Source of the DNA: Bacteroidales bacterium
GTDB taxonomy: Bacteria; Bacteroidota; Bacteroidia; Bacteroidales; UBA932
DNA: 64,000 nt
NCBI GenBank assembly: GCA_017509685.1
Contig: JAFWPA010000036.1
Location: 1 to 64,000 of the forward strand
Direction of reading: 5' to 3'
The position numbers were made by a program, and so were the translations under genes. The notes under the pieces were generated by a model, which saw only the letters and a program-made list of their open reading frames with translations, did no database searches and was not told where the DNA came from. This document shows positions 1-64,000 of the stretch, piece after piece. Within the stretch, counting starts at the first letter, position 1. The number at the start of each line of letters is the position of its first letter.

Positions 1-1808
1 CCGTTGCTGTCCGTGAGCCGGCCCTCGTCCATCACCTGCAGGAGCAGGTTGAAGATGTCGGGATGGGCCTTCTCGATTTCGTCCAGCAGCACCACGCAGT
101 AGGGCTTGCGGCGCACGCGCTCGGAGAGCTGGCCGCCTTCCTCGTAGCCCACATAGCCCGGAGGCGCACCAATCAGACGCGAAACGCTGAACTTCTCCAT
201 ATATTCGCTCATGTCGATACGCACCAGGTTCTCCTCGCTGTCAAAGAGATATTCTGCCAGGGAACGCGCCAGCTGCGTCTTTCCCACACCGGTGGGTCCG
301 AAGAACAGGAACGTACCGATGGGCCGGTTGGGGTCCTTGAGTCCCGCCCGGTTACGCTGGATGGCCCGAACCACGGTATCGATGGCCTGGTCCTGGCCGA
401 TAATCCTCCCCTGCAGGCGCTTGCGCATGTTCACGATGCGGTTTCCTTCACTTTCGGCCACCTTGTTCACGGGAATGCCCGTCATCTTGGATACCACCGA
501 AGCGATATCTTCGGCGTCCACCACGTGAGCAGCACCCTTCTTTTTGGCCAGCGCCAGGCGTACCATGGAACCGGCTTCGTCCAGGGCGTCAATAGCCTTG
601 TCCGGCAGGGACTTGTCTGTGATATAACGGTCTGTCAGGCGCACGGCGGCCTCCACGGCTTCGGGGGTGTAGGTGATGCCGTGAAATTCCTCGTACTTGG
701 GCTGCAGGTGCTTCAGGATTTCGATGGATTCGGCCACGCCGGTAGCTTCCACCACAATCTTCTGGAAGCGGCGGTCCAGCGCGCCGTCCTTTTCCACAAT
801 CTTGGTAAATTCGTCCAGCGTGGTTGCGCCGATGCACTGGAATTCCCCGCGCGCCAGCGCAGGCTTGAGCATATTGGCCGCGTCCAGGCTGCCGGAAGCG
901 CCGCCCGCCCCCACGATGGTATGGAACTCGTCGATGAACAGGATGAGGTCCGGATTCTCCGACGCTTCCTTGATAATGGCCTTGAGGCGCTTCTCGAAGT
1001 CTCCGCGGTATTTGGTACCCGCCACCACGGATGCGATGTCCAGCGACAGGATGCGTTTCTTGGCCAGAGCGGCCGATATGTCACCGGAAGCGATACGCTG
1101 GGCGATGCCCTCCACGATGGCCGATTTCCCCACGCCGGGCTCGCCGATGAGCATGGGGTTGTTCTTCTTGCGCCGGCCCAGGATCTCGATGACGCGGGAA
1201 ATCTCCGTTTCGCGGCCCACCACCGGATCCAGCTTCCCTTCGCGGGCCGCCTTGGTGAGGTCGTAGGCAAACTCCTCGATGTCCAGCTTCTTCTCTGCGC
1301 CCTCCTCTTCCTCGGGAGCCTGCGTGGGCTGTTCCTCCTTGGGGGCCGACGGACGCGGCGGCGGGGCCAGCAATCCCTCGTCCTCCATATAGGCCAGCAG
1401 CCGCCCGTAGTCAATCCCGTGGCTGCGCAGGTACACCTGCCCATAACTCTCGGTGGTACGGCACAGCGCCAGCAGCAGATGCTCCGGCCGCGCCGTGGGG
1501 CTCTTCAGGCGGGACGCCTCCATCACCGTGATGCTGAGCACGTTCTGCGCCTGGCGGGAGAAACTGATATGGTCTATCTGCTCGTACGGGATGGTCTCGT
1601 TGGTAAAGATGCGCTGGTCGATGAAGGCTTTGAGGTCGGCCGGTTCCACACCCAGCCGCTGCAGGGTGGTAAACGCCGCATTTTCCTCGTGACGGATGAT
1701 GCCCAGGAACAGGTGGTCCGGCCCGATGCCGTAACTGCCCGTGCGCATAGCCTCTTCCCGTGCGTAGGAAATGATCTTGTTCAGATCCTCGGATACCTGT
1801 AACTGCAT
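1..1808 (-). CDS. Clp-family AAA+ ATPase (ClpA/ClpC type), C-terminus beyond window
   Basis: ATP-dependent unfoldase that would feed substrates to ClpP. It reads from ATG at 1808 to the left edge, about 602 codons, and its C-terminal end lies outside the window. A Clp N-domain (residues ~1-140) is followed by a charged linker, a first AAA+ module with Walker A GEPGVGKS and Walker B LFIDEF, and a second module with GPTGVGKT and [11 protein letters not shown]. The stretch between the two modules is short, so the coiled-coil M-domain typical of ClpB and ClpC seems to be missing, which resembles ClpA. It starts 1 bp after the LolA-like gene's stop, so the two are probably cotranscribed. The lost C-terminus would show whether an IGF-type ClpP-binding loop is present. 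Confidence 0.93.
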
Positions 1809-1809
1809 A

Positions 1810-2322
1810 TTACTTTACCAGATATTCGGTAGAGATTCCGCCGGCTTCCTCCAGCACCATGCGGGTGATACGGCCCTTGGCGTTATAATCCAGTTCCATT
1901 CCCGTATATCCCTTGAGAGCCGGTTTGCGCACTTTGATTACCACGTGCTTGCCGCCCTTCACATTGGAGACATTACAGTCTGCGTCCATCTCCTTGGCAA
2001 TGTCCTCGTACTTGCCCTGGATGCCGTACAGGATGGCATTGCGCTGGATACGGACCGTCTTGTTGGTACTGGTATCCACATCCAAGGAAATACCCCGCAG
2101 GTCAAAGCGCAGATAAGGGCCGTCTACAATGAAGTAGTCCCCGTCCGGCTTGGTGTAAAGCATTGCCAAATTGTCAGGCTCGGTATAGGAAATGGTCCCC
2201 TCGCTGACAATCTTCTTGCCTGTCATCTTCAGGGTTTTCGTCTGTACAAATGTACTCTCAAAGCTCTGTGCGCCCGCATTCAGGCCCACGAGAAGAAGGG
2301 TTAAAACCAATATTTTTTTCAT
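1810..2322 (-). CDS. LolA-like outer-membrane lipoprotein carrier
   Basis: 170 residues with a clear Sec signal peptide (KK then [15 protein letters not shown]), so the mature protein is periplasmic. The rest has the LolA pattern: a strand alternating Met/Lys, then '[20 protein letters not shown]', and regularly spaced beta strands ending at 'GISTEYLV'. LolA-type proteins ferry lipoproteins from the inner to the outer membrane. Bacteroidota carry several paralogues, and some act with other export pathways, so the cargo is not certain. It lies between the Lrp-type regulator (36 bp upstream) and the Clp gene (1 bp downstream). Confidence 0.75.
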
Positions 2323-2358
2323 AACAGCTAAATGATTTACAAATATAATACCTGCACG

Positions 2359-2826
2359 TCAAAGATACAAGCCGTGCGTGTTCTTGATTTCCGCCATCAC
2401 GAACGACGACAAAATGGAACCGATGGAATCGATGGTTCCCAGCACGTTGATGATGAACTCGTTGTAATACTTCATATCCGGCGCCTGTATCTTGAGCAGG
2501 TAGTCGTACTCCCCGGACACATTGTAACACTCCGCCACCTGCGGAATGTCCTTAATCACGGAAATGAAGTCCCTTGCCACCGTCCGGTTCATCTGCTTCA
2601 GCTTCACGGAACAGAACACCGTAAATCCACGGCCCAGCTTCTCGGCATCCAGCACCGCCACGTACTTGCAGATAAAGCCGCTCTTCTCCAGCCGCTTCAA
2701 CCGCTCGAACACCGGTGTGGTGGACAGGTTCACCTTCGCCGCCAATTCCTTGGTGGTAAGCCTGGCATTCTCCTGCAAAGCCCGCAGGATTTGCAGATCC
2801 ACATTGTCCAGCACGATTTCCGTCAT
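2359..2826 (-). CDS. Lrp/AsnC-family transcriptional regulator
   Basis: 155 residues. An N-terminal AsnC-type helix-turn-helix (residues ~5-60, 'LRALQENARLTTKELAAKVNLSTTPVFERLKRLEKSGFI' in pattern) is followed by a RAM ligand-binding domain (residues ~70-150, with 'VSGEYDYLLKI' and 'GTIDSIGS'). Such proteins form octamers and respond to amino acids. It is divergent from the methionine operon across a 280-bp gap, so it may control that operon, itself, or both; this is inference. Its own 66-nt leader contains a 45-bp inverted repeat that could be an autoregulatory site. Confidence 0.92.
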   Translation of the reverse strand: MTEIVLDNVDLQILRALQENARLTTKELAAKVNLSTTPVFERLKRLEKSGFICKYVAVLDAEKLGRGFTVFCSVKLKQMNRTVARDFISVIKDIPQVAECYNVSGEYDYLLKIQAPDMKYYNEFIINVLGTIDSIGSILSSFVMAEIKNTHGLYL

Positions 2827-2827
2827 A

Positions 2828-2872
2828 AGAATAATATTCTGTTCCGGGCCCGTTTTGCCCGAAGATTATTCT
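2828..2872 (-). promoter_or_regulatory. Inverted repeat in the Lrp-gene leader
   Basis: AGAATAAT at 2828-2835 is mirrored by ATTATTCT at 2865-2872, with a GC-rich inner palindrome (CCGGGC...GCCCG) between. It starts 2 bp before the start codon of the Lrp-family gene and lies downstream of its -7 box. It could be an operator or an RNA hairpin acting on translation. No protein binding is shown by the sequence. Confidence 0.45.
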
Positions 2873-2892
2873 ACTTTTTCTAATAATTTCCA

Positions 2893-2900
2893 CAAATATA
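2893..2900 (-). promoter_or_regulatory. -7 element of the Lrp-family gene
   Basis: On the minus strand this reads TATATTTG, an exact match to the Bacteroidota -7 consensus TAnnTTTG, 66 nt before the start codon at 2826. Confidence 0.6.
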
Positions 2901-2927
2901 GAAACTTTTTCCAAATTTTCATAAACT

Positions 2928-2959
2928 CTTGTATGATTTTTCTACTGATAGTAACTTTG
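2928..2959 (+). promoter_or_regulatory. Promoter of the methionine operon
   Basis: TAACTTTG at 2952-2959 matches the -7 consensus, and CTTG at 2928-2931 fits the -33 element at 20 bp spacing. Transcription would begin near 2965, exactly where the long hairpin begins. Confidence 0.65.
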
Positions 2960-2965
2960 CTTCAG

Positions 2966-3080
2966 GGTTGGACACTCATGCCAGAATCTCTGGCCACCCT
3001 CGGCCGGATAAGAGGGAGGGGCCCACGAAGTGGGAGGGGCCGGAGCGAAGCGGAGGCGATTCGGGCATGAGTGTTCAACC
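2966..3080 (+). ncRNA. Long structured leader upstream of metY (candidate cis-regulatory RNA)
   Basis: The 17-nt arm at 2966-2982 pairs with 3064-3080 with one G-U pair and no gap. After one mismatch, GAATC (2984-2988) pairs with GATTC (3058-3062). The ~69-nt loop is purine-rich and holds two small hairpins, CCCAC-GAAG-TGGG and a GCGAAGC turn. The structure fills nearly all of the 5' UTR between the predicted start of transcription and the metY start. The conserved SAM-I core is not present. It could be a new riboswitch or attenuator, or a small mobile palindrome that landed in the leader. Confidence 0.5.
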
Positions 3081-3106
3081 GGAAGACAGAATAATACATT
3101 ATTATT

Positions 3107-4381
3107 ATGGCAAAAATTGATACCCGTTGCGTACATGCAGGTTACAACCCCGGAAAGGGCGAACCTCGGCAGTTACCCATTATTCAAAGTACTACCTTTA
3201 AATATGAGACGTCGGACCAGATGGGCCGGTTGTTCGACCTGGAGGATAGCGGCTATTTCTATACGCGGTTGCAGAACCCTACGGTAGATGCCGTGGCGGC
3301 GCAGATCAACGACCTGGAGGGCGGCGTAGGGGCCATCCTTACATCGTCGGGGCAGGCGGCCAACCTCTTCGCGGTGCTTAATATCGCCGGGGCTGGAGAC
3401 CACGTGGTGGCGGCCAACAACATCTACGGCGGCACCTTCAACCTGCTGGGCGTGAGCCTTCCCAAGCTAGGAATCGGCATCACCTTCATCAAGGCCGATT
3501 CCACCGACGAGGAAATCCAGGCGGCCATCCAGCCCAACACCAAGCTCGTCTTCGGCGAAACCATCTCCAACCCCGGCGTAGAGGTCTTCGACATCGAGCG
3601 CTGGGCCAAGGTGGCGCACAAGAACGGGCTGCCGCTGGTGGTGGACAACACCTTCGCCACCCCCGTGCTGTGCCGTCCTTTTGAATGGGGGGCCGATATC
3701 GTCACCAATTCCACCACCAAGTACATCGACGGGCATGGCGTTTCCGTGGGCGGGGCTCTGATAGACAGCGGCAACTTCCCCTGGGACAAATACCCCGACA
3801 GATTCCCCGGTCTCACCACCCCCGACGCATCCTACCACGGACTCACGTATACCAAGAAATTCGGCAAGGCAGCGTTCATCGTGAAGGCCACCACGCACCT
3901 GATGCGGGACCTGGGCAGCACGCAGAGCCCCCAGAACGCCTTCTACCTGCACCTGGGCCTGCAGACCCTGCACCTGCGTATCCGCCGGCACAGCGAAAGC
4001 GCGCTCAAGGTGGCCCAGTGGCTGCAGAGCCGCCCGGAAGTGGCCTGGATCCACTACCCCGGCCTGGAGAGTGACGCTCATCACAACCTGGCGGTGAAAT
4101 ACTGCCCCGACGGCTGCAGCGGCGTAATGGCTTTCGGCCTCAAGGGCGGTCGCGCGTTTGACAACCGCTTCCTGGACGGCCTCAAACTCACCACTATCGA
4201 AACCCACGTGGCCGACTGCCACACCTGCGTCCTGCACCCCGCTTCCCACACTCATCGGCAGCTCTCCGACGAACAGTTGCGGGAAGCCGGCATCGCTCCG
4301 GACCTTATCCGGCTCTCCATCGGCCTGGAGGATCCCGAAGACATTATCAACGACCTGAAACAGGCCCTGGAAAATGCTTAG
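3107..4381 (+). CDS. metY: O-acetylhomoserine aminocarboxypropyltransferase / cysteine synthase
   Basis: 424 residues of the Cys/Met metabolism PLP-enzyme family; cytosolic. It converts O-acetylhomoserine and sulfide to homocysteine, the direct-sulfhydrylation route to methionine. The PLP lysine lies in NSTTKYIDGHG (residues ~202-212), with the family motifs YTRLQNPT near residue 50, SSGQAA near 85 and VVDNTFATP near 180. Length and the 'KYIDGH' signature favour MetY over MetB or MetC. It is the first gene of a three-gene operon, and its 3' end overlaps metX by 8 bp, which implies translational coupling. Confidence 0.95.
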   Translation: MAKIDTRCVHAGYNPGKGEPRQLPIIQSTTFKYETSDQMGRLFDLEDSGYFYTRLQNPTVDAVAAQINDLEGGVGAILTSSGQAANLFAVLNIAGAGDHVVAANNIYGGTFNLLGVSLPKLGIGITFIKADSTDEEIQAAIQPNTKLVFGETISNPGVEVFDIERWAKVAHKNGLPLVVDNTFATPVLCRPFEWGADIVTNSTTKYIDGHGVSVGGALIDSGNFPWDKYPDRFPGLTTPDASYHGLTYTKKFGKAAFIVKATTHLMRDLGSTQSPQNAFYLHLGLQTLHLRIRRHSESALKVAQWLQSRPEVAWIHYPGLESDAHHNLAVKYCPDGCSGVMAFGLKGGRAFDNRFLDGLKLTTIETHVADCHTCVLHPASHTHRQLSDEQLREAGIAPDLIRLSIGLEDPEDIINDLKQALENA

Positions 4382-5369
4382 ACAGGAGATTATCACAGAC
4401 CTTCCGCTGGAAGCCGGCGGTGTGCTCAAGGGAGCGCACCTGGTCTTCCATACCTCGGAGCAGCGGCACGGACGGGTTATCTGGATCTGTCATGCCCTTA
4501 CCGCCAACTCCAACCCCGAAGACTGGTGGCCGGAGATGGTGGGAGCGGGCCGTACCATCGACCCCGATAAGGACTTCGTGGTGTGCGTGAACATGCTGGG
4601 AAGCGCTTACGGGTCCGAGAGTCCTGCGCGCATCAACCCGGCTACCGGGAAGCCCTGGATGCTGGATTTCCCCCACATCACCGTCCGGGACAGCGTGAGC
4701 GCTTTCATCGCCGTGCGCAAGCATCTGGGGATAGAGAAGATAGACCTGCTCATCGGCGCCTCCAACGGCGGTTTCAACGCCATCGAGTGGGCGGTGACAG
4801 AGCCAGAGCGCATTGTACGGGCCCTGTTCCTGTGCACCGCGCCGCGCATCTCCCCCTTCCTGGGCGCCACCGTGGAAGCTCAGCGGATGGCCCTGGAAGC
4901 CGACCCTACTTTCCGGGAAGCCAAAGACCTGCAGGGCGGCACCGCCGGCCTCAAGTGCGCCCGGGCCCAGGCCCTCATCAGCTACCGCAGTTTCAAGGGG
5001 TACGGCCGCACCCAGGCCGAGGAAGACCCCGACACCCTCTTCGCCGGCCGCGTGGCCTCCTACGAGCGTTACCAGGGCGAAAAGCTGGTGCGCCGCGGCT
5101 TCGACGCCTACTGCTATTACACCCAGTGCAACGCCCTGGACAGCCACAACGTGGGCCGGGGCCGGGGCGGCGTGCAAAAGGCCCTGGGTACCATCAAGGC
5201 CGCCTGCACCATTGTAGCGGTGGACACCGACCAGATTTTCCCGCCTGCAGAAAGCAGGGAATGGAGCGCCTGGATTCCCGGCGCCGAATATTTAGAAATC
5301 AGTTCAGACTTCGGCCATGACGGTTTCCTCCTGGAGATTGCGAAATTATCGGCCATTATCATGAGATAG
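4374..5369 (+). CDS. metX: Homoserine O-acetyltransferase
   Basis: 331 residues with an alpha/beta-hydrolase fold. It makes the O-acetylhomoserine that MetY consumes. The nucleophile elbow is GASNGGF (Ser near residue 128; GGSMGG is more usual), the acid lies in AVDTDQIFPP and the catalytic His in FGHDGFLLE near the C-terminus. The oxyanion-region motif CHALTANSN and the NMLGSAYGSESP segment are typical MetX. It overlaps metY and ends 3 bp before the aspartokinase gene. MetX and the true succinyl-transferring enzymes cannot be separated with certainty by eye, though pairing with MetY supports acetyl. Confidence 0.93.
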   Translation: MLRQEIITDLPLEAGGVLKGAHLVFHTSEQRHGRVIWICHALTANSNPEDWWPEMVGAGRTIDPDKDFVVCVNMLGSAYGSESPARINPATGKPWMLDFPHITVRDSVSAFIAVRKHLGIEKIDLLIGASNGGFNAIEWAVTEPERIVRALFLCTAPRISPFLGATVEAQRMALEADPTFREAKDLQGGTAGLKCARAQALISYRSFKGYGRTQAEEDPDTLFAGRVASYERYQGEKLVRRGFDAYCYYTQCNALDSHNVGRGRGGVQKALGTIKAACTIVAVDTDQIFPPAESREWSAWIPGAEYLEISSDFGHDGFLLEIAKLSAIIMR

Positions 5370-5372: not shown

Positions 5373-7733
5373 ATGCAAGTATTGAAGTTCGGCGGCACCT
5401 CCGTCGCCAGCGCTGAAGCCATGCTTCAGACCATCGATGTCATCAAGAAGGCCCTGGAAGAGGACCGCACCCTGGTGGTGAGTTCGGCCATCAGCGGCTG
5501 TACCGACCAGCTCATCCATATTGGCCGTCTGGCCGCCGCGCGCGATAAAAGTTGCCGGGAAAAGCTGCAGGCCCTGCAGGAGCGGCATCACCAGATCATT
5601 GATACGCTGCTGCCGGAAGGGTACCGCGGCAAGACCGCCCAGGCGGTGGACGCCCTCTTCGGGGAGCTGGAAAGCATCGTACAGGGCGTGTACCTGGTGG
5701 GCGAGCTCTCCCCTACCAGCCTGAGCGCAGTGGAAAGCTTCGGCGAGCTCCTCTCCACACGCATCCTCACAGACCAGTTCCTGTCGCAGGGAATTGCCTG
5801 CCGATGGCTGGACGCCCGCGAGCTGGTGCTCCTGCGGGACGGCGTGGTGGACACCGCCGAGACCTACCGGCGCATCCAGGAGGCCGTGCAGCGGCACCCG
5901 CACGCAGACCTTTTCCTGGCGCCCGGCTTCATCGCCCGGGACGCCGAAGGACGCCCCGCCACCCTGGGACGCGGCGGTTCCGACTATTCCGCTTCCCTGT
6001 TCGCCGTGGGCCTGCACGCCCGCAAGCTGGAAATCTGGACCGACGTTCCCGGCATCATGACGGCGCATCCGCAGGTGGTACCATCGGCCCGCCCCATCCC
6101 CTTCATCTCCTACCGCGCCGCGCAGGAGCTGTCCCATTTCGGCGCTAAGGTGATTTATCCGCCCACCATCCAACCCGTTGTGGCAGAGGGAATTCCCATC
6201 TGGGTGAAGGACACCTTCCACCCGCTGGAACCCGGCACGCTGGTAGAGAAGAACCCGCCCCGCACGCACGGCGGCGTAGTGGGCATCGCGCATTCACAGG
6301 GCATTGCCCTCATCTCCCTGGAAGGCAGCGGAATGGTGGGGGTCCCGGGCTTCAGTTCCCGCCTCTTCGACGCCCTCTCCCGCCAGGGCATCAACATCAT
6401 CCTCATCACCCAGGCTTCCTCCGTGCACTCGATGTGCATCGCCGTATCGGCCGATGACGCCCTGCGCGCCCGGAAAGCCGCCGACGACTGTTTCGCGTAC
6501 GAAATTTCCCTTGGCAAACTGAACCCGCTGAAGGTGGAGACAGGCTTTTCCATCGTATGCGTGATTGGCGACGATATGCTGGGTCACAGCGGCGCCACCG
6601 GCCAGATGCTGGCCGCCCTGGGCCGTCACAGCATCCCGGTGCGGGCCACGGCGCAGGGCTCCTCGGAACGCAATATCTCCGTAATCGTGCCCTCCGACCG
6701 GGCCGACGAAGCCATCCGCGCCATCCACCACGAATTCTTCGACCGCTTTGACACCCAGGTGATTCCGCTGTTCATCGCCGGTTACGGCCGCGTGGGCAAA
6801 GCGCTGGTGGACATGCTGCGGGACAATGCAGCGGCCATCGCCAAACGTTCCGGCAAGGAACTGCGCGTGTGCGGCCTGGCCCGGAGCAAGAAGTTCATCA
6901 TCAATACGGAAGGCATTGACCTGACCCACGCCGGAGAATTGCTGGAAGAAGGTTCCGCCGGCTCCTATATCGACGCTCTCTGCAGCCTTTCCCTGGAGAA
7001 TCCCATCTTCATTGACTGCACGGCCAACGAAGAAATCGGATTCCGCTATCCGGACCTGTTCCAGTGCGGCTACAGCGTGGTGGCCTGCAACAAGATTCCT
7101 TTCTCCGGCACCTATGCCCAGTTCCGAAACCTGCAGCTGGACGCCCACAAGGCGGGTGTCGCCCTGCGCTATGAAACCACGGCCGGCGCCGCCTTGCCGG
7201 TGCTGGTCACACTGGACCGCGTGGTCCAGAGCGGTGACCGCCTGGTGCGTATGGACGCCGTGCTCTCCGGCACGCTGAACTACCTGCTGGACAATTACCG
7301 TGGCAGTGGCTGGGAAGACCTGGTGGAAGAAGCCCGCGTGAAAGGCTACACGGAACCGGACCCGTCCATTGACCTAAGCGGCAAGGATGTACTGCGTAAG
7401 ATTCTGATTCTGAGCCGCCAGGCCGGCCTTCCGCTGGAAGAGAGCCAGGTGACTTTGGAGCCCATTCCCGCTAATATTGCCGAGCGTTATGCCGCCTCTG
7501 CCGCCGCCGGCCGCAAGCTGCGCTATGTGGCATCGGTAGATGCCGAAGGCCACGCCACCGTGGGCCTGCAGGAAGTGGGGCCCGAGAGCCCGCTGTACGG
7601 CCTTCGCGGCACCGACAACGCCATTATGATCACCACCGGCGACTACCCCTCGCCCATGCTCATCCAGGGCGCAGGCGCCGGCACCCGCCAGACTGCCGGC
7701 GGATTGCTGAACGACATTATGCTGGCGCTGTAA
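5373..7733 (+). CDS. thrA: Bifunctional aspartokinase / homoserine dehydrogenase
   Basis: 786 residues. It catalyses the first and third steps from aspartate to homoserine. The aspartokinase domain (residues ~1-290) opens with KFGGTSVAS and has GRGGSDYSA. Two ACT-type regulatory modules follow (~300-455, with LEGSGMVGVPGFSSRLF). The homoserine dehydrogenase domain (~460-786) has the NAD(P)-binding FIAGYGRVGKALV, CNKIPFSG, and VLSGTLNYLLDN followed by EPDPSIDLSGKDVLRK. Sitting after metY and metX, it supplies homoserine for methionine, so it is functionally like MetL here. Feedback control by amino acids through the ACT modules is known for the family. Confidence 0.95.
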   Translation: MQVLKFGGTSVASAEAMLQTIDVIKKALEEDRTLVVSSAISGCTDQLIHIGRLAAARDKSCREKLQALQERHHQIIDTLLPEGYRGKTAQAVDALFGELESIVQGVYLVGELSPTSLSAVESFGELLSTRILTDQFLSQGIACRWLDARELVLLRDGVVDTAETYRRIQEAVQRHPHADLFLAPGFIARDAEGRPATLGRGGSDYSASLFAVGLHARKLEIWTDVPGIMTAHPQVVPSARPIPFISYRAAQELSHFGAKVIYPPTIQPVVAEGIPIWVKDTFHPLEPGTLVEKNPPRTHGGVVGIAHSQGIALISLEGSGMVGVPGFSSRLFDALSRQGINIILITQASSVHSMCIAVSADDALRARKAADDCFAYEISLGKLNPLKVETGFSIVCVIGDDMLGHSGATGQMLAALGRHSIPVRATAQGSSERNISVIVPSDRADEAIRAIHHEFFDRFDTQVIPLFIAGYGRVGKALVDMLRDNAAAIAKRSGKELRVCGLARSKKFIINTEGIDLTHAGELLEEGSAGSYIDALCSLSLENPIFIDCTANEEIGFRYPDLFQCGYSVVACNKIPFSGTYAQFRNLQLDAHKAGVALRYETTAGAALPVLVTLDRVVQSGDRLVRMDAVLSGTLNYLLDNYRGSGWEDLVEEARVKGYTEPDPSIDLSGKDVLRKILILSRQAGLPLEESQVTLEPIPANIAERYAASAAAGRKLRYVASVDAEGHATVGLQEVGPESPLYGLRGTDNAIMITTGDYPSPMLIQGAGAGTRQTAGGLLNDIMLAL

Positions 7734-12496: not shown

Positions 12497-13639
12497 ATGA
12501 CAACGCAGGAACAGATCAAGGACTTACAGGAGAGGGTGGCTGCCCTGGACAGCTGCCTGGATATTGCCGGAAAACGGAAAGAAGTAGCCGCCAAGACGGA
12601 AGAGACGCTGGCGCCGGACTTTTGGGGAGACCCCAAGGCCGCGGAGGCGTTCCTCAAGAAACTCTCCGGCATCAAGTCCTGGGTGACGGACTTCGACAAG
12701 GCCCGCAGCCAGGCCGATGACCTGGACGTCCTCTACGAATTCGCCAAGGACAGTCTGTCCGGGGCCGATGACGAAGCCATCGAGACCGCCGAAACCAAGG
12801 AACTGGACGCCGCCTACGCCCAGGCGGTAGAGGCCGTGGAAGCCCTGGAACTGCGCAATATGCTGGGGAACGAAGGCGACAACCTGGGCGCCGTCCTCAC
12901 CATCAATTCCGGCGCCGGCGGCACGGAAGCCAACGACTGGAGCGCCATGCTCATGCGCATGTACACCCGCTGGTGCGAGCGAAACGGCTATAAGTATACG
13001 GTAACCTCCCTCCTGGAAGGCGAAGAAGCAGGTATCAAGAGCACCACCATTGAAGTGGAAGGAGACTACGCCTACGGCTATCTCAAGGCCGAAAACGGTG
13101 TGCACCGCCTGGTGCGCATCTCTCCCTTCAACGCCCAGGGCAAGCGCCAGACCACTTTCTCCAGCGTGTTCGTGTATCCGCTGGTAGACGACAGCATCAA
13201 CATTGAAATCAATCCCGGAGACCTGGAGTGGGACACCTTCCGCAGCGGCGGCCACGGCGGCCAAAACGTGAACAAGGTGGAAACCGGCGTGCGTGTGCGC
13301 CACATTCCCTCCGGCATCATGGTGGAGAATACGGAAACCCGCAGTCAGCAGGACAACCGCCAGCGCGCGCTGCTCATCCTCAAGTCCCGCCTCTACGACA
13401 TCGAACTCAAGAAGCGCCAGGAAAAACAGGCCGAACTGGAGGGCCAGAAAAAGCGCATCGAGTGGGGCTCCCAGATCCGCAACTACGTCCTGCACCCGTA
13501 CAAGCTGGTGAAGGACCTGCGCACAGGTTACAATACCGCCGACACCCAAGGGGTGCTGGACGGCGACCTCAATGAGTTTATGAAGACGTATCTGATGGGC
13601 AAGGGCGCCGCGGTCACCGACGCCGATGATTTAGAGTAA
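12497..13639 (+). CDS. prfB: Peptide chain release factor 2
   Basis: 380 residues. It recognises UGA and UAA stops and triggers hydrolysis of peptidyl-tRNA. The RF2 tripeptide anticodon SPF is in LVRISPFNAQG, and the catalytic GGQ is in SGGHGGQNVNK. The N-terminal coiled-coil domain (residues ~1-110) is complete. Many bacteria autoregulate prfB with a programmed +1 frameshift at an early UGA; here the equivalent place reads TGC CTG GAT in one uninterrupted frame, so that control is absent. The last 9 bp overlap the convergent nicotinamidase gene. Confidence 0.96.
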   Translation: MTTQEQIKDLQERVAALDSCLDIAGKRKEVAAKTEETLAPDFWGDPKAAEAFLKKLSGIKSWVTDFDKARSQADDLDVLYEFAKDSLSGADDEAIETAETKELDAAYAQAVEAVEALELRNMLGNEGDNLGAVLTINSGAGGTEANDWSAMLMRMYTRWCERNGYKYTVTSLLEGEEAGIKSTTIEVEGDYAYGYLKAENGVHRLVRISPFNAQGKRQTTFSSVFVYPLVDDSINIEINPGDLEWDTFRSGGHGGQNVNKVETGVRVRHIPSGIMVENTETRSQQDNRQRALLILKSRLYDIELKKRQEKQAELEGQKKRIEWGSQIRNYVLHPYKLVKDLRTGYNTADTQGVLDGDLNEFMKTYLMGKGAAVTDADDLE

Positions 13640-40564: not shown

Positions 40565-43150
40565 CTAGAACTGCTGGCCCAGGACGAAGTGGAAATGGCT
40601 TCCACCGTTGGTGGTGTCGTCGAAGCCGTAGCCCCAGTCGACGCCCAGCAGGCCGATCATGGGCAGGAATACACGCACGCCCACACCCGCGCTTCGCTTG
40701 ATCTGGAACGGATTGAACTCCCGGATGTCGCTCCAGCAGTTACCGCCTTCCAGGAAGGCCAGGGCATAGATGGTGGACTGAGGCTGCAGGATAACGGGAT
40801 AGCGGAGTTCCACGGTGAACTTGTCGTACACGTTACCCGCGTAGCTGATACCGTTCTGGCTGTACGGGGTGACCTTGCGAGGCGTGAGGGAATAGTCCTC
40901 GTAACCGCGCAGGGACACGATTTCGGCGCCGTAGGTCATATAGCCCGACATACCGTCGCCGCCCACCTGGAAGTTCTCGAACGGAGAATAACCCCAGTTG
41001 CGGTTGTAGTAACCCAGATAGCCGAACTGCGCGCGTGTCATCAGCACCAGGTCTCCCACCAGCTTGGTGTACACCGTGCCGTTGAATTTCCACTTGTGGT
41101 ACTCGATCCACTTGTAGCGCTGGGCCGACGTCCAGTCGTCGTAGTTCACATCCTTCCAGCTGTTCACGGGCACGCGCTCGCCCAGTTCGTCGTAGGTATA
41201 CTTCCGGAACAGGGAGTACGGCGGCGTAAACTGCAGGGAGAAGGAGAATTCGGAACCCGTACGGGGATAAATCTGCTGGTCCGATGAGTTACGCGTGAGG
41301 GAGATGGTATAGCTGAGGTTGTGGGAAATACCGTCGTTGAACGCGAAGTAACTGTTGGTCCAGTTGGTGAGCTTGTAAGTTTGCCAGCTGAGGTTGTTGT
41401 ACAGCACGAAGTAGCTGTCGGGCCACTTGAGGCGCGTACCCAGACCGGCGTTGAAGCCGAACACCTCGAACATCTTGTCCGTGGAGAGGATGCCGATGGC
41501 AAGATAGGAGTCCGTCATCCTGGAATAGTAACCGGAGATACTGAGGGACGTGGGTTTCTTGCCGAAGAGCCAGGGCTCCATAAAGCTGGCGCTGAGGGAA
41601 GTGTAGTACTTTCCGTTGGTCTGGAAACGGAAGGAAAGAGTCTGGGCGTCTCCCAGCGGAACGGGCCGCCAGGCGCCTTTCTCGAAGAACCGGCGGGTAG
41701 AGAAGTTGTTGAAACTTACGCCGGCCGTGAGCACGAAGGTGTTACCGCCCCAACCGCCGGAGAGTTCCAGCTGGGAAGACGGCTTCTCCGTCACGTGGTA
41801 CATGATGTCCACGGTATTGTTGAGCTGGTTGGGCAGGATGCTCCAGCCGCGGTTGGGATCCATGGCAGCCTCGGGGTCGAACTGGCCCATGGAGGAAATC
41901 TCACGGATGGAACGCTCGAAGTCCGTCTGGCTGAAGAGATAGCCGGGACGGGTGGTGAGCTGGCGGCGTACCACTTTCTCGTTGGTGAGGTCGTTGCCGT
42001 CGATGATAATCTCGTTGAGTACGGCGGGCTTGCCTTCGGAGATGCGCATCTCCACGTCCACGGAGTCGTTCTGGATGTTCACCTCCACGGGCGTCACGTT
42101 GAAGAAGAGGTAACCGTTGTCACGGTACAGCTTGGAGACGTCGTATTCGTTCTCCTTGCCGCCGCCGTGCAGGCGCTTCTCCATGGTAACAAGGTCGTAC
42201 ACGTCTCCGCTCTTGATCTGGAGGATTTCGTTGAGTACATCGGAGGAATACACCGAGTTACCCGTCCAGGTGATGTTGCGGAAATAGTACTTGCGGCCCT
42301 GGTCGAAGACCATGTCGATGTTCAGGTGCTTGCCGTCTTCCAGGAAGTACACCGAGTCGCGCACCAGGCGGGCGTCGCGGTAACCGGCCTCGTTGAAGGC
42401 GTCCAGGACGGTCTTGCGGTCCTTTTCGTATTCCTTCTCCTTGAACTTCTTGGACTTGAAGAAGTTGTACCACGTTGCGGCGTGGGTCTCCTTCATGTTC
42501 TTGGCCAGCTTCATGGGCTTAACGTCCGTGTTACCGGTGTAGTTGATGTCCTTGATGCGGATTTTCTTGCCGCGGTCCACGTTGAAGGTGACGCGGATGG
42601 CGCTCTTGATCATGGTATCCCGCTGGACATCCACGTCCACGTTCACTTTCAGGAAACCCTTTTCCTTATAGTAACGCTTGATGATGTCCACGGAAGTATT
42701 CTTCACATATTCGGAGTATTCGCGGCCGGGACGCAGGTTCAGGCGCTCCTGCAGGTCCTTCTTCTCTCCGCTTTTCACGCCGGTGTAGTTCCAGCGGGAC
42801 ACGCGGGGACGTTCCCGTACGCTGATGACAAACCAGGCGGTGTCGGCCTGGGCGCTCAGAGAGTCCACCATCACGGCCACGTCCTCGAAGTAGCGCTGGG
42901 CCACCAGGCGCTTCACGATGCCCGTGACCTCTTCACCGGGGACGGTGATTTCCTGACCGGCCTGCAAACCTGTGAGCTGCAGGATCTGGTGCTGGTTGAA
43001 ATACTGGTTCCCTTCTACACTCACACCACCCACGACGTAGGTCCTGGGACGGTTGTAATCGACCTCGATGCTGCTGCGGGACGTCTGCGCCTGCAGGGAC
43101 ATTCCCGTCAGGAGCAGCACGGCAGCGCATAGTATCTTGATTCCTCTCAT
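40565..43150 (-). CDS. bamA: Outer-membrane protein assembly factor BamA
   Basis: 861 residues with a signal peptide (GIKILCAAVLLLTGMSLQAQ). Five POTRA repeats (~35-440) are recognisable from repeated VxxVxVEGN and Y.xxGY motifs (GVSVEGNQYF, YKEKGFLKVNVD, NEAGYRDARLV, YRDNGYLFFNV). The C-terminal barrel ends in Phe (GSHFHFVLGQQF) with the Bam barrel DWGYGFD-type motif. BamA inserts outer-membrane proteins. A bamD gene occurs at 51666, and OmpH chaperones at 39941 and 47321 would deliver clients. Confidence 0.96.
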   Translation of the reverse strand: MRGIKILCAAVLLLTGMSLQAQTSRSSIEVDYNRPRTYVVGGVSVEGNQYFNQHQILQLTGLQAGQEITVPGEEVTGIVKRLVAQRYFEDVAVMVDSLSAQADTAWFVISVRERPRVSRWNYTGVKSGEKKDLQERLNLRPGREYSEYVKNTSVDIIKRYYKEKGFLKVNVDVDVQRDTMIKSAIRVTFNVDRGKKIRIKDINYTGNTDVKPMKLAKNMKETHAATWYNFFKSKKFKEKEYEKDRKTVLDAFNEAGYRDARLVRDSVYFLEDGKHLNIDMVFDQGRKYYFRNITWTGNSVYSSDVLNEILQIKSGDVYDLVTMEKRLHGGGKENEYDVSKLYRDNGYLFFNVTPVEVNIQNDSVDVEMRISEGKPAVLNEIIIDGNDLTNEKVVRRQLTTRPGYLFSQTDFERSIREISSMGQFDPEAAMDPNRGWSILPNQLNNTVDIMYHVTEKPSSQLELSGGWGGNTFVLTAGVSFNNFSTRRFFEKGAWRPVPLGDAQTLSFRFQTNGKYYTSLSASFMEPWLFGKKPTSLSISGYYSRMTDSYLAIGILSTDKMFEVFGFNAGLGTRLKWPDSYFVLYNNLSWQTYKLTNWTNSYFAFNDGISHNLSYTISLTRNSSDQQIYPRTGSEFSFSLQFTPPYSLFRKYTYDELGERVPVNSWKDVNYDDWTSAQRYKWIEYHKWKFNGTVYTKLVGDLVLMTRAQFGYLGYYNRNWGYSPFENFQVGGDGMSGYMTYGAEIVSLRGYEDYSLTPRKVTPYSQNGISYAGNVYDKFTVELRYPVILQPQSTIYALAFLEGGNCWSDIREFNPFQIKRSAGVGVRVFLPMIGLLGVDWGYGFDDTTNGGSHFHFVLGQQF

Positions 43151-43183
43151 TCGCGGTTCAGTTATCTTGCAAAGATAAGCATT

Positions 43184-43885
43184 TTATTTCACTTTACCAT
43201 AACGGCGGTCCCTGCGGGCGTATTCCGCCAGGGCTTCCCGGAACTGCGGCTTGCGGAAGTCCGGCCACAGCGTATCGGTAAAATAGAATTCCGTATAGGC
43301 GCTCTGCCACAGCAGGTAATTGGAGATGCGCAGTTCGCCGGAGGTGCGGATGAGCAGGTCCGGGTCCGGGATGCCGGCGGTGACCAGATACCGGTCGAAG
43401 TCCGGCAGTTCCATAGCCTGGAGCTGCTCGGGAGACAATTGTGCCGCAGCCTTTTTCACAGCCTGCAGGATGTCCCACTTGCCGCTGTAGCTCAGGAAGA
43501 GGATCAGGGTGCAACGGACATCGGCCACGTTGGTACGCTCCATCATTTCGTCGATGGTCCGGTTGAGTCCGTCGCTCAGGCGGGCGCGGTTGCCCAGCAC
43601 CATAAAGCGGATCTTGTTGTCCAGGAACGTCTTGAGCTCGTTCTTCATGGCCCGCATCATCAGTTCCATCAGGGCGATGACTTCGTCCTGCGGCCTATTC
43701 CAGTTTTCCTCCGAGAAGGCATAGACCGAAAGGTACTTCACGCCGTCTTCGGCGGCGGCTTCCAGGCAGGCACGGACGCTCTCCACGCCTTCGATGTGCC
43801 CTTTCACGCGGTCCAGACCGCGGGCCTTCGCCCATCGGCCGTTACCGTCCATAATAATGGAAACGTGCTGCGGTATTTTCTCCAT
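43184..43885 (-). CDS. uppS: Undecaprenyl-diphosphate synthase (cis-prenyltransferase)
   Basis: 233 residues; cytosolic face. It makes the C55 lipid carrier for peptidoglycan and O-antigen. The catalytic Asp is in IIMDGNGRWAKARG (~10-23), and family motifs LSVYAFSEENWNRP (~67) and DLLIRTSGELRISNYLLWQ (~185-203) are intact. It sits between nadK and bamA. Confidence 0.95.
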   Translation of the reverse strand: MEKIPQHVSIIMDGNGRWAKARGLDRVKGHIEGVESVRACLEAAAEDGVKYLSVYAFSEENWNRPQDEVIALMELMMRAMKNELKTFLDNKIRFMVLGNRARLSDGLNRTIDEMMERTNVADVRCTLILFLSYSGKWDILQAVKKAAAQLSPEQLQAMELPDFDRYLVTAGIPDPDLLIRTSGELRISNYLLWQSAYTEFYFTDTLWPDFRKPQFREALAEYARRDRRYGKVK

Positions 43886-43889: not shown

Positions 43890-44714
43890 TTACTCGTTGT
43901 TGCGCATGTCTTCTCCCCAGAAAAGGCGTGAGGTAAGGGCCTTCACGAAACCCGATTCCGGGAGCCGGACACGTTTAAGCGAAAACTGTGCCATCTCCAC
44001 GTGGATGGTCCATTCCGGATGAATTTCTTCCACGCGGTTGTCCATGGACATGGTAGCCTTGCCGTCCCGGGACTCGAAGGAGATGTCTATCTTGGCGGTC
44101 TCGGGGATCACGATGGGGCGCACGTTCAGGTTGTGCGGGGAAATAGGGGCCATCACCAGCACCTTGGTCTCCGGCATACAGATGGGACCGCCCACGCTCA
44201 GGGAATAGGCCGTGGAGCCGGAAGGGGTGGCCACCAGGAGACCGTCGGCCCAATAGGTGGGCAGGGGTTCCCCGTTGATGCTCACGTGGATGCCCAGCAC
44301 GGAAGAGCCACTGCGGTGCAGGGCCACCTCGTTCACGCTGTAGGGCAGCATGCCGATGGAACGGCGCGCCTCGGGACCCTTGAGCGTAGCGTTGAGCACG
44401 GTACGGTACTCGATGCTGAATTCTCCCTCCAGGAGGGCTTTCCGCACAGCCTCCGGCTGGTTCTCGCAGAGGAAGCCGATGCGGCCGAAGTTCACGCCCA
44501 GGATGGGCAGGCCGATATCGGCCACAACGTGCGCGGCGCTCAGGAAAGTGCCGTCGCCGCCCATCGAAAGGACCAGGTCAGTGTCCGGGCGGACATCGGC
44601 CTTGGTGCGAATCTCGTATACCTCGAAGGTGGCCGATTCCAGGTCCTTCAGCAGCGTAGCCATCCGCTCGTCGCTCCGGAGCTCCTCCTTGAGAATGAAA
44701 TATCCTATTTTCAT
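43890..44714 (-). CDS. nadK: NAD kinase
   Basis: 274 residues. It phosphorylates NAD to NADP. The GGDGTFLSAA motif (~51-60) and the downstream LGVNFGRIGFL and ATPSGSTAYSLSVGGPI motifs are typical. It is the first gene of the nadK-uppS-bamA-ompH run, 4 bp before uppS. The classical neighbour pdxJ is present but reversed 1.8 kb away, separated by a GH31 gene. Confidence 0.95.
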   Translation of the reverse strand: MKIGYFILKEELRSDERMATLLKDLESATFEVYEIRTKADVRPDTDLVLSMGGDGTFLSAAHVVADIGLPILGVNFGRIGFLCENQPEAVRKALLEGEFSIEYRTVLNATLKGPEARRSIGMLPYSVNEVALHRSGSSVLGIHVSINGEPLPTYWADGLLVATPSGSTAYSLSVGGPICMPETKVLVMAPISPHNLNVRPIVIPETAKIDISFESRDGKATMSMDNRVEEIHPEWTIHVEMAQFSLKRVRLPESGFVKALTSRLFWGEDMRNNE

Positions 44715-52871: not shown

Positions 52872-54518
52872 ATGCTGTACAGCCTCTCCGTCAGCAATTA
52901 CATTTTGATTGGCTCTCTGGAAACCCGTTTTCCAGAGGGCCTCAACATTATTAGCGGAGAGACCGGCGCCGGAAAGTCCATCCTGCTGGGCGCGCTGTCC
53001 CTTGTGCTGGGCGCCAAGGCCGATGCCTCCATGGTGGGGCCGGCCGGCGAGAACTGCATCGTGGAGGCCGAGTTCGGCGTGGACGATGTGATCTGCCGCA
53101 TCCTGGCCGATGCAGACCTTCCCCTCGAAGATGACCGTCTGATCCTTCGCCGCACCGTAGCCCGCAGCGGACGCTCCCGCAGTTTCGCCAACGACGAACC
53201 CGTGAGCGTGAACGTGCTGCAGGAGTTGTCGGAGCGGCTCATCGACATTCACTCGCAGCACCAGACGCTGCGCCTGCAGGACGCCCGCTTCCGGATGGAA
53301 GCCCTGGACCTGCGCGCAGGCTGTACACAGCTGCGGCAAGACTGCGTCAGTGCGTGGAACGACCTCCTTACGCATCGGCACAACCTGCAGGAACTGGAAG
53401 AGCGCCTGGCCGCCGCCCGGGACCAGCAGGAATACAACCAGAGCCGCTGGCAGCGCCTGGAAGAGGCCAAACTCGTTCCCGGCGAACTGGAAGACCTGGA
53501 AGCCGAACAGAAGCAACTGGCTCACGCCGAGGAAATCAAGCAGATGCTCAGCGAGGCCGACGCAATCCTCTCCCCTTCCGAAGACGACCAGGCGTCCCCC
53601 GCCCGGGCACTGCGCGAATGCGCCCGCATCCTGGAAAAGGCCGGCCGGTTTATCCCTTCGATGCTGCCCCTCTCGGAGAGGTTGGCATCGGCCAGGCTGG
53701 AAGTGGAGGACATTGCGCAGGAAGTGGCCGATGCCGCCGCCCGCACCGACGTCTCCCCGGAGCGCCTACAGCAGGTGGAAGACCGCCTGTCGCTGCTGTA
53801 CGGCCTGTTCCAAAAGTACGGCGCCACCTCCGTGGAGGAACTCATCGGCGAACGGGACCGCCTGGCTTCCCTGGTAATGGACGCCACGGGCCTGCAGGCC
53901 GATGTAGACGCAGCCCGCAAAGCGCTGGATGCCGCTCAAGAGACGCACACCGCCCTTTGTGACCAGCTGCACGCCAAGCGTCTGGCCGGTTCCGGGCCCT
54001 TTGCCGCCGCCATCGAAGAGCTGCTGCACGGCCTGGATTTGGAAAAAGCTACATTCCAAGTGGTGCTGGAGGATGCCGCCCCCGGTGCAAACGGACGGGA
54101 CAGCGTCCAGTTCCGCTTCTCCTCTACCGGCCGCCTCAGCGCCGACGTAGCCAAAGCCGCTTCCGGCGGCGAACTGTCCCGTATCATGCTGGCCATCAAG
54201 GCCGAAATGGCCCGGTATCGGCATATGCCCACGCTGGTCTTCGACGAGATTGACTCCGGCGTGTCCGGCGGTACCGCCGACAAGATGGGCCGCCTGGTAT
54301 GCGCCATGGGACAGGATATGCAGGTTTTCGCCATCACCCATCTGCCGCAGGTGGCCGCCAAGGGCCACGCCCACTTCCTGGTTTCCAAGGCCGGGGGCAG
54401 CACCACCATGCACCAGCTGGACGCCGATGGCCGCGTACAGGAACTGGCCCGGATGCTATCCGGCGCCACCATCACCCCGGAGGCCGTGGCCAACGCCAAG
54501 GCCCTGCTAAACGCATAG
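52872..54518 (+). CDS. recN: DNA repair protein RecN
   Basis: 548 residues, SMC-like ATPase in double-strand break repair. Walker A is ISGETGAGKSILLGAL (~28-43), followed by long coiled-coil arms (~150-350) and a C-terminal half with the ABC signature KAASGGELSRIMLAIK and Walker B TLVFDEIDSGVSGG (~455). Complete. The gene is unusually rich in the GGCCGAT/ATCGGCC motif (several copies). Confidence 0.95.
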   Translation: MLYSLSVSNYILIGSLETRFPEGLNIISGETGAGKSILLGALSLVLGAKADASMVGPAGENCIVEAEFGVDDVICRILADADLPLEDDRLILRRTVARSGRSRSFANDEPVSVNVLQELSERLIDIHSQHQTLRLQDARFRMEALDLRAGCTQLRQDCVSAWNDLLTHRHNLQELEERLAAARDQQEYNQSRWQRLEEAKLVPGELEDLEAEQKQLAHAEEIKQMLSEADAILSPSEDDQASPARALRECARILEKAGRFIPSMLPLSERLASARLEVEDIAQEVADAAARTDVSPERLQQVEDRLSLLYGLFQKYGATSVEELIGERDRLASLVMDATGLQADVDAARKALDAAQETHTALCDQLHAKRLAGSGPFAAAIEELLHGLDLEKATFQVVLEDAAPGANGRDSVQFRFSSTGRLSADVAKAASGGELSRIMLAIKAEMARYRHMPTLVFDEIDSGVSGGTADKMGRLVCAMGQDMQVFAITHLPQVAAKGHAHFLVSKAGGSTTMHQLDADGRVQELARMLSGATITPEAVANAKALLNA

Positions 54519-62388: not shown

Positions 62389-62495
62389 CGCTCTTACCAT
62401 AAATCGCTGTTTATCAACGTATTGCATATTTTTCTTTAGCCCGCCCGGCGTAAAGAAAATTCTCAAAGTATCTGTGTATCAACGAGTTAAGCCGC
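62389..62495. repeat. Intergenic palindrome, copy 7
   Basis: Central TTTTTCTTTAG/..TAAAGAAAA hairpin around CCCGCCCGGCG, with arms CATAAATCGCTGTTTATCAACG and the mirrored GTGTATCAACGAGTTAAGC. Directly follows the miaB stop and precedes the radC promoter. Confidence 0.75.
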
Positions 62496-62526
62496 AACCT
62501 TCGAAAAGGTAGTGGCGGGGATGTAT

Positions 62527-62534
62527 TATCTTTG
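62527..62534 (+). promoter_or_regulatory. -7 element of radC (leaderless)
   Basis: TATCTTTG with 6 nt to the ATG at 62541. An in-frame TTG at 62532 lies inside the box and is not a start. Confidence 0.6.
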
Positions 62535-62540
62535 CCCCGT

Positions 62541-63227: not shown

Positions 63228-63253
63228 TTATTTGCTCTTTAACGGGAAAATAC

Positions 63254-63261
63254 TATATTTG
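63254..63261 (+). promoter_or_regulatory. -7 element of upp
   Basis: TATATTTG, 25 nt before the ATG at 63287, so the start is 63287 and not an upstream in-frame codon. Confidence 0.6.
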
Positions 63262-63286
63262 TATTTCGAAGCAAATCCCTAAGGCC

Positions 63287-63940
63287 ATGAAACTAGTGAA
63301 TATCGGGGAGAACAATTCCGTTCTCAACAGCTACATTGCAGAAATCCGCGACGTCCGTATCCAGAAAGACAGCCTGCGCTTCCGCACCAACCTGGAAAGG
63401 GTGGGTGCCGTCTTTGCCTACGAAATCTCCAAGACACTGGAGTACTCGGAAAAGGAAGTTACCACTCCCCTGGGCGTGGCCAATGTGCAAACATTTGACA
63501 CGCAGCTGGTTATCGCAGCCATCCTGCGGGCCGGCCTCCCTATGCAGAACGGCCTGCTGGGCTTCTTTGACCACGCCGAAAGCGCCTTCCTTTCCACCTT
63601 CCGCAAGTTTGGCAAGGGAGACTACTTCAAGGTGCACGCCGACTACTGCACCTGCCCGTCCCTGGAAGGTAAGGTGCTCATTGTGGCCGATCCTATGTTA
63701 GCCACCGGTTCCTCCATGGAAAGCGCCCTGCGCAAACTGGAGGAAGAGGGCGGTCAGGCCCAGCACATCCACATGGTGTGCCCCGTAGCCAGCCGTTATG
63801 CCGTGGACCAACTGCTGCAGCGCCTGGACAGCCACTACACCCTGTGGGTGGCCGCCATCGACGAAGAACTCACCAGCCACAATTACATCATCCCCGGGTT
63901 GGGAGACGCCGGAGACCTGGCCTACGGCGAAAAAGTGTAA
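63287..63940 (+). CDS. upp: Uracil phosphoribosyltransferase
   Basis: 217 residues; converts uracil and PRPP to UMP. The PRPP loop is LIVADPMLATGSSMESAL (~130-147), and the N-terminal LRAGLPMQNGLL and C-terminal IPGLGDAGDLAYG uracil-binding segments fit. Together with the uridine phosphorylase at 9896 it completes uridine-to-UMP salvage. Has its own terminator. Confidence 0.94.
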   Translation: MKLVNIGENNSVLNSYIAEIRDVRIQKDSLRFRTNLERVGAVFAYEISKTLEYSEKEVTTPLGVANVQTFDTQLVIAAILRAGLPMQNGLLGFFDHAESAFLSTFRKFGKGDYFKVHADYCTCPSLEGKVLIVADPMLATGSSMESALRKLEEEGGQAQHIHMVCPVASRYAVDQLLQRLDSHYTLWVAAIDEELTSHNYIIPGLGDAGDLAYGEKV

Positions 63941-63962
63941 AGCCCTGTTCCATAGACCCTTC

Positions 63963-63990
63963 AAGACTGCCCGCAAGGCAGTCTTTTTTT
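63963..63990 (+). terminator. Terminator after upp
   Basis: AAGACTGCC/GGCAGTCTT stem (63963-63971 with 63977-63985) followed by TTTTT. Nothing else is seen between upp and the window end. Confidence 0.85.
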
Positions 63991-64000
63991 GTGTTGAAAA

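Follow-up and report, generated by a model that had tools for sequence, protein, structure and literature searches.

Abundance of GGCCGAT in the window and the source genome

The DNA stretch analysed here (the window) comprises positions 1 to 64,000 of contig JAFWPA010000036.1 from a Bacteroidales bacterium. Its genes include those for aspartate kinase/homoserine dehydrogenase, Dxr, release factor 2, glutamate dehydrogenase, a BamA-like protein and a RecN-like protein. The 7-mer GGCCGAT, which reads ATCGGCC on the opposite strand, was found 93 times in the window, i.e., 46 GGCCGAT and 47 ATCGGCC (Table 1). The initial annotation had counted about 90 copies by hand. Most of the 23 places cited there lay within 2 bases of a copy, whereas 45128, 45661, 53000, 53070, and 53700 were off by 6 to 35 bases. 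The cited place 6449-6456 was two overlapping copies at 6446-6455.

The count in the window was far above the nulls. Dinucleotide-preserving shuffles (n = 100) gave a mean of 14.8 copies (standard deviation 3.3, largest 23). Under the order-3 Markov model, a check proposed by the initial annotation, 24.6 copies were expected, and GGCCGAT was the top 7-mer by that score. It was outside the 12 top words of an order-5 model, since the excess already resides in the 6-mers that compose it. The near-control GGCCGAC/GTCGGCC had 31 copies, one third as many, as estimated earlier. When synonymous codons were shuffled within the 51 gene calls of the window (n = 500), 20.2 ± 3.9 copies were expected and the maximum was 34, against 89 observed; GGCCGAC was near its expectation (31 against 27.8). 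In the 16 family-supported genes, 44 copies were observed against 9.7 ± 2.5, with a maximum of 18 in 1000 shuffles. The gene calls were mechanical, and release factor 2 was missed by them. The open frame at 11921-13639 matches it from residue 199 onwards, so that the true start is near 12515. The glutamate dehydrogenase of the window was also compared with viral contigs; this gave three distant loci, which were not used.

The source genome (G000; 2.31 Mb, 91 contigs, 79% complete) contained 2847 copies (1407 and 1440 in the two orientations), against 301 of the reversed-word control. The enrichment thus extended to the rest of the genome. A set of 218 gene calls from this genome contained 370 copies against 86.9 ± 6.6 under the codon null, i.e., 4.3 times over-represented, and not under-represented as a restriction site is in its host. 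By codon frame, the commonest was G-GCC-GAT (168 against 32.0 expected), followed by NNA-TCG-GCC (91 against 4.3), ATC-GGC-C (87 against 44.1), and GGC-CGA-T (16 against 1.4); the remaining two frames had 5 against 1.8 and 3 against 3.2. The orientations inside genes were 187 forward and 183 reverse. The 34,988 bases outside the gene calls, about 29.5 kb without the 5,485 N, held 31 copies and 2 of the control. These N bases, in contigs L088 and L095, were counted as sequence in the frame, intergenic and top-word counts and were excluded from later counts.

A codon-pair or translational bias has in its favour that most copies are genic and that G-GCC-GAT is the commonest context. However, a codon-pair Markov null, which already holds most of each copy, gave 203.6 against the 370 observed, while the same null nearly reproduced the count in four sparse relatives (49 against 43.1 expected). 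Together with the equal orientation in genes, the several frames and the intergenic copies, these results make such a bias extremely improbable, and explanations by codon usage or codon pairs were rejected. The GGCCGAT excess belongs to the DNA word. In this respect the initial annotation was borne out, as it had proposed that the word itself is conserved in either orientation and across different codon contexts.

GGCCGAT was likewise the top word in the related genomes G019 (148 against 22) and G028 (104 against 28). When these two and the source genome were pooled and compared with a phase-matched null, the flanks were near 1, and the base directly after the word was the exception (G 1.37, A 1.12, T 0.64, and C 0.44). 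The deficit of C fits the general avoidance of GATC in the source genome (500 against 1206 expected). Because the flanks are nearly flat, the unit is essentially the 7-mer, and a repeat family or mobile element was rejected as its source. The palindrome ATCGGCCGAT occurred 4 times in the genes examined in the source genome. The ends of genes were slightly poorer in copies (60 in the first tenth and 55 in the last tenth, of 735). Every quartile of gene G+C content showed the excess (4.1 to 5.4 times). So did every quartile of codon typicality (6.3 to 4.3 times), with the smallest excess in the genes of most typical codon usage.

Polarity was judged within contigs rather than relative to ori and ter. 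In the source genome, orientation was homogeneous across 14 stretches with at least 5 copies (chi-square 5.7, p 0.97). G019 was homogeneous as well (p 0.96), and G028 (p 0.08) and G076 (p 0.06) were borderline, so that no clear strand polarity along contigs was found in these four genomes. The gaps between copies had a coefficient of variation of 0.97 to 1.14, as expected of random (Poisson-like) placement. With this symmetry and the ratio of 46:47 in the window, a polar segregation motif of the type of FtsK orienting polar sequences (KOPS) is disfavoured, and the same holds for the segregation or polar recombination motif named in the initial annotation. GGCCGAT is short, non-palindromic and enriched, as would be expected of a Chi-like site of an AddAB or RecBCD enzyme, and Chi sequences differ between species. 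The lack of orientation bias within contigs speaks against such a site, which is considered quite improbable.

Nine word-free stretches were found where at least 5 copies were expected, and the proteins from four of them were scanned with Pfam. Loci of the SusC/SusD type coincided with long word-free stretches at L085 280-7515 and L101 2914-6700. The word-free stretch of L114 carried a gene of the endonuclease/exonuclease/phosphatase family. The word-free stretch L105 13417-16831 in G019 had a GC content of 0.43 against 0.56; one gene was scanned at its edge, and it also holds a 790-residue open frame. The longest word-free genes had, for most, a codon-null expectation near zero, and for this reason they provide no clear test of word-free stretches as mobile DNA.

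Table 1. Positions of GGCCGAT/ATCGGCC copies and related features in the window
Feature	Position	Strand	Details
GGCCGAT, start positions	395, 1071, 1119, 3493, 3691, 6449, 8208, 11297, 12712, 12763, 17014, 18549, 21066, 21341, 21787, 24683, 26526, 26736, 29246, 30009, 30287, 31207, 34930, 37104, 39325, 40651, 44510, 44631, 45134, 45173, 45680, 46292, 48745, 49363, 50952, 53018, 53105, 53726, 53897, 55913, 57026, 59600, 61152, 62133, 63098, 63685	+	
ATCGGCC, start positions	4319, 5348, 6083, 6446, 9113, 9488, 10124, 13952, 16402, 17501, 18274, 19142, 19228, 20799, 20949, 22824, 22953, 24732, 26328, 26956, 27256, 29351, 31742, 32516, 33701, 35513, 36173, 37299, 37803, 43520, 43834, 44517, 44595, 45554, 47190, 51439, 53687, 54648, 54699, 55308, 56634, 57512, 60654, 60720, 61420, 61698, 62364	-	
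Palindrome ATCGGCCGAT	6446..6455		Two overlapping copies within the aspartate kinase/homoserine dehydrogenase gene
Local four-copy cluster	44510..44637		44510+, 44517-, 44595-, 44631+
recN-like gene	52872..54515	+	Five copies: 53018+, 53105+, 53687-, 53726+, 53897+; the RecN tree of relatives is based on its protein
Longest copy-free stretch	40652..43519		2869 bases start to start; spans most of the BamA-like gene 40565-43150

Distribution and dialects among relatives

The best matches of the window Dxr (86% identity downwards) came from uncultured Bacteroidales whose genomes had mostly been obtained from samples of rumen and gut. Candidatus Cryptobacteroides faecihippi was among the relatives, with a Dxr identity of 62%, and the genus is presumably Cryptobacteroides. 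Presence in related genomes, another check suggested by the initial annotation, was found but was uneven. The 100 same-genus genomes contained 103 (G031) to 3333 (G019) copies, and the density reached 1.5 per kb in G019. The reversed control was present about 60 to 390 times in most of these genomes. Genomes were called dense at a ratio of word to reversed control of about 4, a threshold set after the counts had been seen; 16 of the 100 had a ratio of at least 4, and G051 was at 3.98. The reversed control contains TAG, which is rare in these genomes, and the ratio is unsafe outside the genus, where low-copy genomes of the order can exceed 4 (e.g., G310, 474 against a control of 34).

The genomes of loci L001, L002, L004 to L014, and L016 had 1447 to 3643 copies, and that of L015 had 307. 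The highest count was in G586 (2.3 Mb). Three more distant genomes had 1932 (L063), 1276 (L046), and 924 (L030) copies. G253, a genome of the same genus from the family sample, had 18 copies with a control of 14. In the order sample (n = 295), G488 (4.3 Mb) and G327 (4.8 Mb) had the largest counts outside the genus, about 1370 and 1320, i.e., below 0.4 per kb. Some genera avoid GGCCGAT. In G119 (L131-L135), the six lowest 6-mers all contained GGCC, with zero copies each; its low GGCCGAT count is therefore a matter of GGCC avoidance.

In a RecN tree of 50 genus members, the source genome belonged to a clade of ten dense genomes with a support of 100/100. The dense label required six changes on this tree, and supported branches force at least three of these; shuffled labels required 14.5, and none of 500 shuffles needed so few. 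RecN identity to the source genome correlated with the word ratio in 59 hand-chosen relatives (Spearman 0.62). The tree and the correlation show a graded, inherited trait that occurs at more than one place. The GGCCGAT excess is lineage-specific.

The sparse relatives G068, G088, G053, and G078 (100 kb each) yielded no word of similar strength. Their best frame-averaged scores were 4.8 for 7-mers and 5.6 for 6-mers, against 16.9 in the source genome and 12.0 in G019. Since recombination should be needed in these sparse genomes too, this is a further point against a Chi-like site. In G030 (L121-L125), which lacks the GGCCGAT excess, ATTGCC/GGCAAT (118 against 43, enriched in 5 of 6 frames), together with CATTGAC/GTCAATG, was a possible other iterated word.

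Some relatives favoured words that differ from GGCCGAT by one letter. In coding DNA of G596, GGCCGAA (102 against 19) exceeded GGCCGAT (55 against 13), and GGCCGAG was rare (4 against 18). The whole genome of G596 contained 3128 GGCCGAA (control 582) and 1702 GGCCGAT, while GGCCGAA ranged from 332 to 1609 in the other 24 genomes searched. In coding DNA of G594, the first letter varied, i.e., TGCCGAT 125 against 27, GGCCGAT 61 against 16, and AGCCGAT 15 against 17. GGCCGAT itself was enriched in coding DNA of G597 (117 against 14), G599 (83 against 14), G606 (74 against 18), and G605 (75 against 19). Shifted words were found in G073 (GCCGATG, 106 against 29) and in G076, where GGCCGAT (83 against 17) stood beside CCGATGC (70 against 17) and CCGATTC (45 against 10). 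In G603, CATCGGA/TCCGATG had the best score, with CCGATGC at 58 against 16 and GGCCGAT at 41 against 14. The pool of G063 and G074 was weak (65 against 30). One-letter dialects with a core shared between relatives are a feature of uptake sequences.

The dialects were also visible at aligned sites. Where other dense species carry GGCCGAT, L013 (genome G596) had T 11 times, A 5 times, and neither C nor G as the last base (n = 16). Six sparse relatives had C 11, T 4, G 2, and A 1 (n = 18; Fisher p 1.3e-4 for C against L013). In L011, the first base was G in 6 and T in 6 sites, with no A or C. The substitutions at aligned sites follow the favourite word of each species, in small numbers.

Retention was scored in orthologous genes around Dxr where amino acids were conserved, with the expectation taken from codon retention. 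The alignment covered 13 dense genomes and 586 reciprocal pairs in both directions, so site pairs are not independent; L003, L011, and L013 were left out of the dense-pair comparison. Between dense genomes, retention of the word in the main frames exceeded the expectation by a factor of 1.4 to 5.3. At protein identities of 85% or more, these frames retained 72 of 158 (41.4 expected), 50 of 74 (24.2), and 4 of 18 (2.8), and a fourth frame 0 of 1. At 70-85%, the values were 116 of 268 (62.3), 212 of 238 (64.1), and 50 of 104 (10.1), and at 40-70%, 126 of 180 (40.4), 24 of 56 (14.3), and 10 of 26 (1.9). From dense genomes to seven sparse relatives, where site pairs are likewise not independent, no retention beyond codons was found, i.e., 17 of 161 (15.0 expected), 0 of 125 (23.3), and 0 of 53 (1.9).

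Avoidance of CGA and methyltransferase families

Outside the word, CGA/TCG was the most under-represented trinucleotide in the source genome (0.67), G019 (0.50), G028 (0.72), and a pool of seven named loci (0.62). Sparse sets had values of 0.90 to 1.00; G073 was at 0.74 and G076 at 0.89. In dense genomes, this avoidance was seen in all frames and on both strands and was strongest at NCG|A junctions. Over 88 groups, CGA was negatively correlated with the word excess (Spearman -0.54; -0.61 for ATC), uncorrected for relatedness. The partnership was not strict. L016 (0.84) and G076 are dense without much CGA avoidance, L042 and L044 avoid CGA (0.38) without the word (1.8 and 1.4), and L068 has the word and no CGA avoidance. 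CGA avoidance as an obligatory partner of the word was therefore rejected. Among the words listed, other CGA-avoiding lineages favoured different words with CGA, i.e., TCAGCGA in L072 and CATCGGC or ATCGGGC in L044 and L042.

A context-dependent mutation or repair bias could make or spare GGCCGAT with no recognition function. The CGA avoidance in many dense genomes agrees with it, as does the observation that GCCGAT alone of the 64 NNCGAN contexts was clearly enriched (2.19). The replacement, however, is not a transition. The share of G at the third position of NCN codons was 4.1% before A and 24.5% before other bases in the source genome, 2.9% and 24.2% in G019, and 24.5% and 23.6% in the sparse pool. 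C before A rose from 58.6% to 82.3%, and A did not rise, so deamination is not supported as the cause. CGA avoidance and word density also separate in L016, G076, L042, and L044. A mutational origin is thus regarded as improbable.

Owing to the broad avoidance of CGA, dense genomes have few near-miss words that contain it. The depletion of near-misses such as GACCGAT was considered as a sign of conversion and was dropped, as unrelated words were rare too. CTGACC/GGTCAG was strongly avoided in the window and L081-L100 of the source genome (53 against 229), and [CG]TCGA[CG] was at about 0.1 of expectation in pooled dense sets. Avoidance of this kind, which GATC shares, would be expected of restriction enzyme sites.

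The 101 genomes of the genus were searched for two methyltransferase families. PF00145 (C5 methyltransferases) matched in 19, including the dense G003, G037, G073, and G076, and PF01555 was over the cut-off in 28, including G005, G028, G038, G073, and G076. No match to either of these two families was found in the source genome, at its 79% completeness, or in G019. For the methylation site that the initial annotation had listed, the C5 and PF01555 types are disfavoured accordingly.

In a wider form, GGCCGAT could be where a DNA-modifying enzyme acts or where an abundant nucleoid protein specific to the lineage binds, serving chromosome structure or repair with no DNA transfer. Such a role has been proposed for HIP1, one of the highly iterated palindromes (HIPs) of cyanobacteria. 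Thousands of scattered copies, lineage limits and alternative words in relatives are reported for the HIPs (PMC4390886) and agree with this explanation. The sharp 7-mer, flat flanks and neutral near-misses suggest exact recognition, and CGA avoidance outside the word could reflect a cost of partial sites. The word is not a palindrome, and the two families searched have no match in the two genomes named above; this explanation is judged unlikely, and still a serious one.

Possible reader of the word and known systems

Some protein presumably reads GGCCGAT, and a protein-binding site of some kind, as the initial annotation had allowed, is likely. The favoured reading is a recognition word for a DNA-binding machine, most likely one that takes up or recombines DNA in natural transformation with a preference for its own kind. 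It is plausible and falls short of probable. The data show a dispersed, orientation-symmetric and lineage-bound word with dialects that is under selection or drive, a non-palindromic 7-mer with about one copy every 0.6 to 0.8 kb in the densest genomes. The machine would bind DNA sequence-specifically, and its taste would drift between species, giving dialects around a CCGA core. Perhaps the reader acts in a pilus-independent route of uptake or recombination, so that DNA of the own kind might be preferred. Sites that gain the word would then spread through the preference for word-bearing DNA, and the word would shift slowly with the receptor. Of the options in the initial annotation, an uptake-type signal fits best, with no polarity, retention at sites and dialects, and the density is indeed that of uptake sequences, as claimed there.

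Several points weigh against uptake in these uncultured species. The CGA avoidance of many dense genomes has no place in the uptake/recombination model. One-mismatch words were near expectation in dense genomes (2079 against 1925, ratio 1.08), whereas an excess is reported for those of uptake sequences (PMC1939737). ComEC-family matches were found in 97 of the 101 genus genomes and HhH-family matches in all 101, which in itself favours uptake. They occurred alike in sparse and dense species, however, and competence genes were rejected as predictors of density. PF00437, the ATPases of pili and type II secretion (T2SSE), was over the cut-off in 6 of the 101 genomes, none of them dense; most other genus genomes, including the source genome, had a weak partial match below the cut-off. 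The HhH matches of the source genome comprised one in a 313-residue frame, and the other strong ones were in frames of about 700 residues. None of the families ComEC, HhH, PF00437, PF00145, and PF01555 tracks density.

A more specific proposal is that a pilus-independent transformation route reads a CCGA-core 7-mer, that the receptor drifts and the genomes follow, and that neighbouring gut species whose words differ by one letter are thereby hindered from exchanging genes. This is possible and on balance doubtful. To our knowledge, no earlier uptake-sequence system is known from Bacteroidota. Neither GGCCGAT or ATCGGCC as a whole word nor any uptake sequence of Bacteroidota was found in the literature searched, where subscription papers and preprints were mostly missing. 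Recognition words that span a whole genome are known from a few groups, and conjugation is the usual explanation for gene exchange in gut Bacteroidales. Dialectal words of self-recognition, if true, would be the first known uptake-sequence system of the phylum. A dialect word would mark which species can exchange DNA and would help to find the uptake or binding protein. Even with another reader, GGCCGAT is a strong and simple genome-wide signal in uncultured bacteria, loosely coupled to CGA avoidance.

Chi and KOPS are short, non-palindromic, over-represented words that are polar with replication; GGCCGAT differs from them in having no clear polarity within contigs. Riemerella columbina belongs to another class of Bacteroidota. 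It prefers its own DNA without a known pilus system, which is similar to the proposed reading, although the accessible text names no uptake word for this preference (PMC7965970). There are further precedents in the phylum. Transformation without pilus homologues is reported for R. anatipestifer (PMC8459023), and ComEA and ComEC are required in Porphyromonas gingivalis, a member of Bacteroidales (PMC11532111). HIP1 and the alternative HIPs resemble GGCCGAT as very frequent, dispersed and lineage-bound words with alternatives. They are described as palindromes tied to methyltransferases (PMC4390886), unlike the non-palindromic GGCCGAT with no PF00145 or PF01555 match in G000 and G019.

The uptake signal sequences (USS) of Pasteurellaceae are non-palindromic and dispersed, with two related versions in the family, and in this they are like GGCCGAT. 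Their near-misses are reported to be in excess, unlike those of GGCCGAT (PMC1939737). The DNA uptake sequences (DUS) of Neisseriaceae are 10 to 12 bp against 7 bp and come from a different phylum (PMC3630211). Also unlike DUS, the dense GGCCGAT genomes have no PF00437 over the cut-off and no enriched near-misses. The word was not classed as DUS or USS because neither an excess of near-misses nor a pilus-type ATPase over the cut-off was found in dense genomes. DUS and the orientation-symmetric GGCCGAT are nevertheless alike in their thousands of dispersed copies and in one-letter dialects around a short core, i.e., eight DUS variants that share CTG, and the 3643 copies of G586 are within the range of 2245 to 4549 reported for DUS in Neisseriaceae (PMC3630211).

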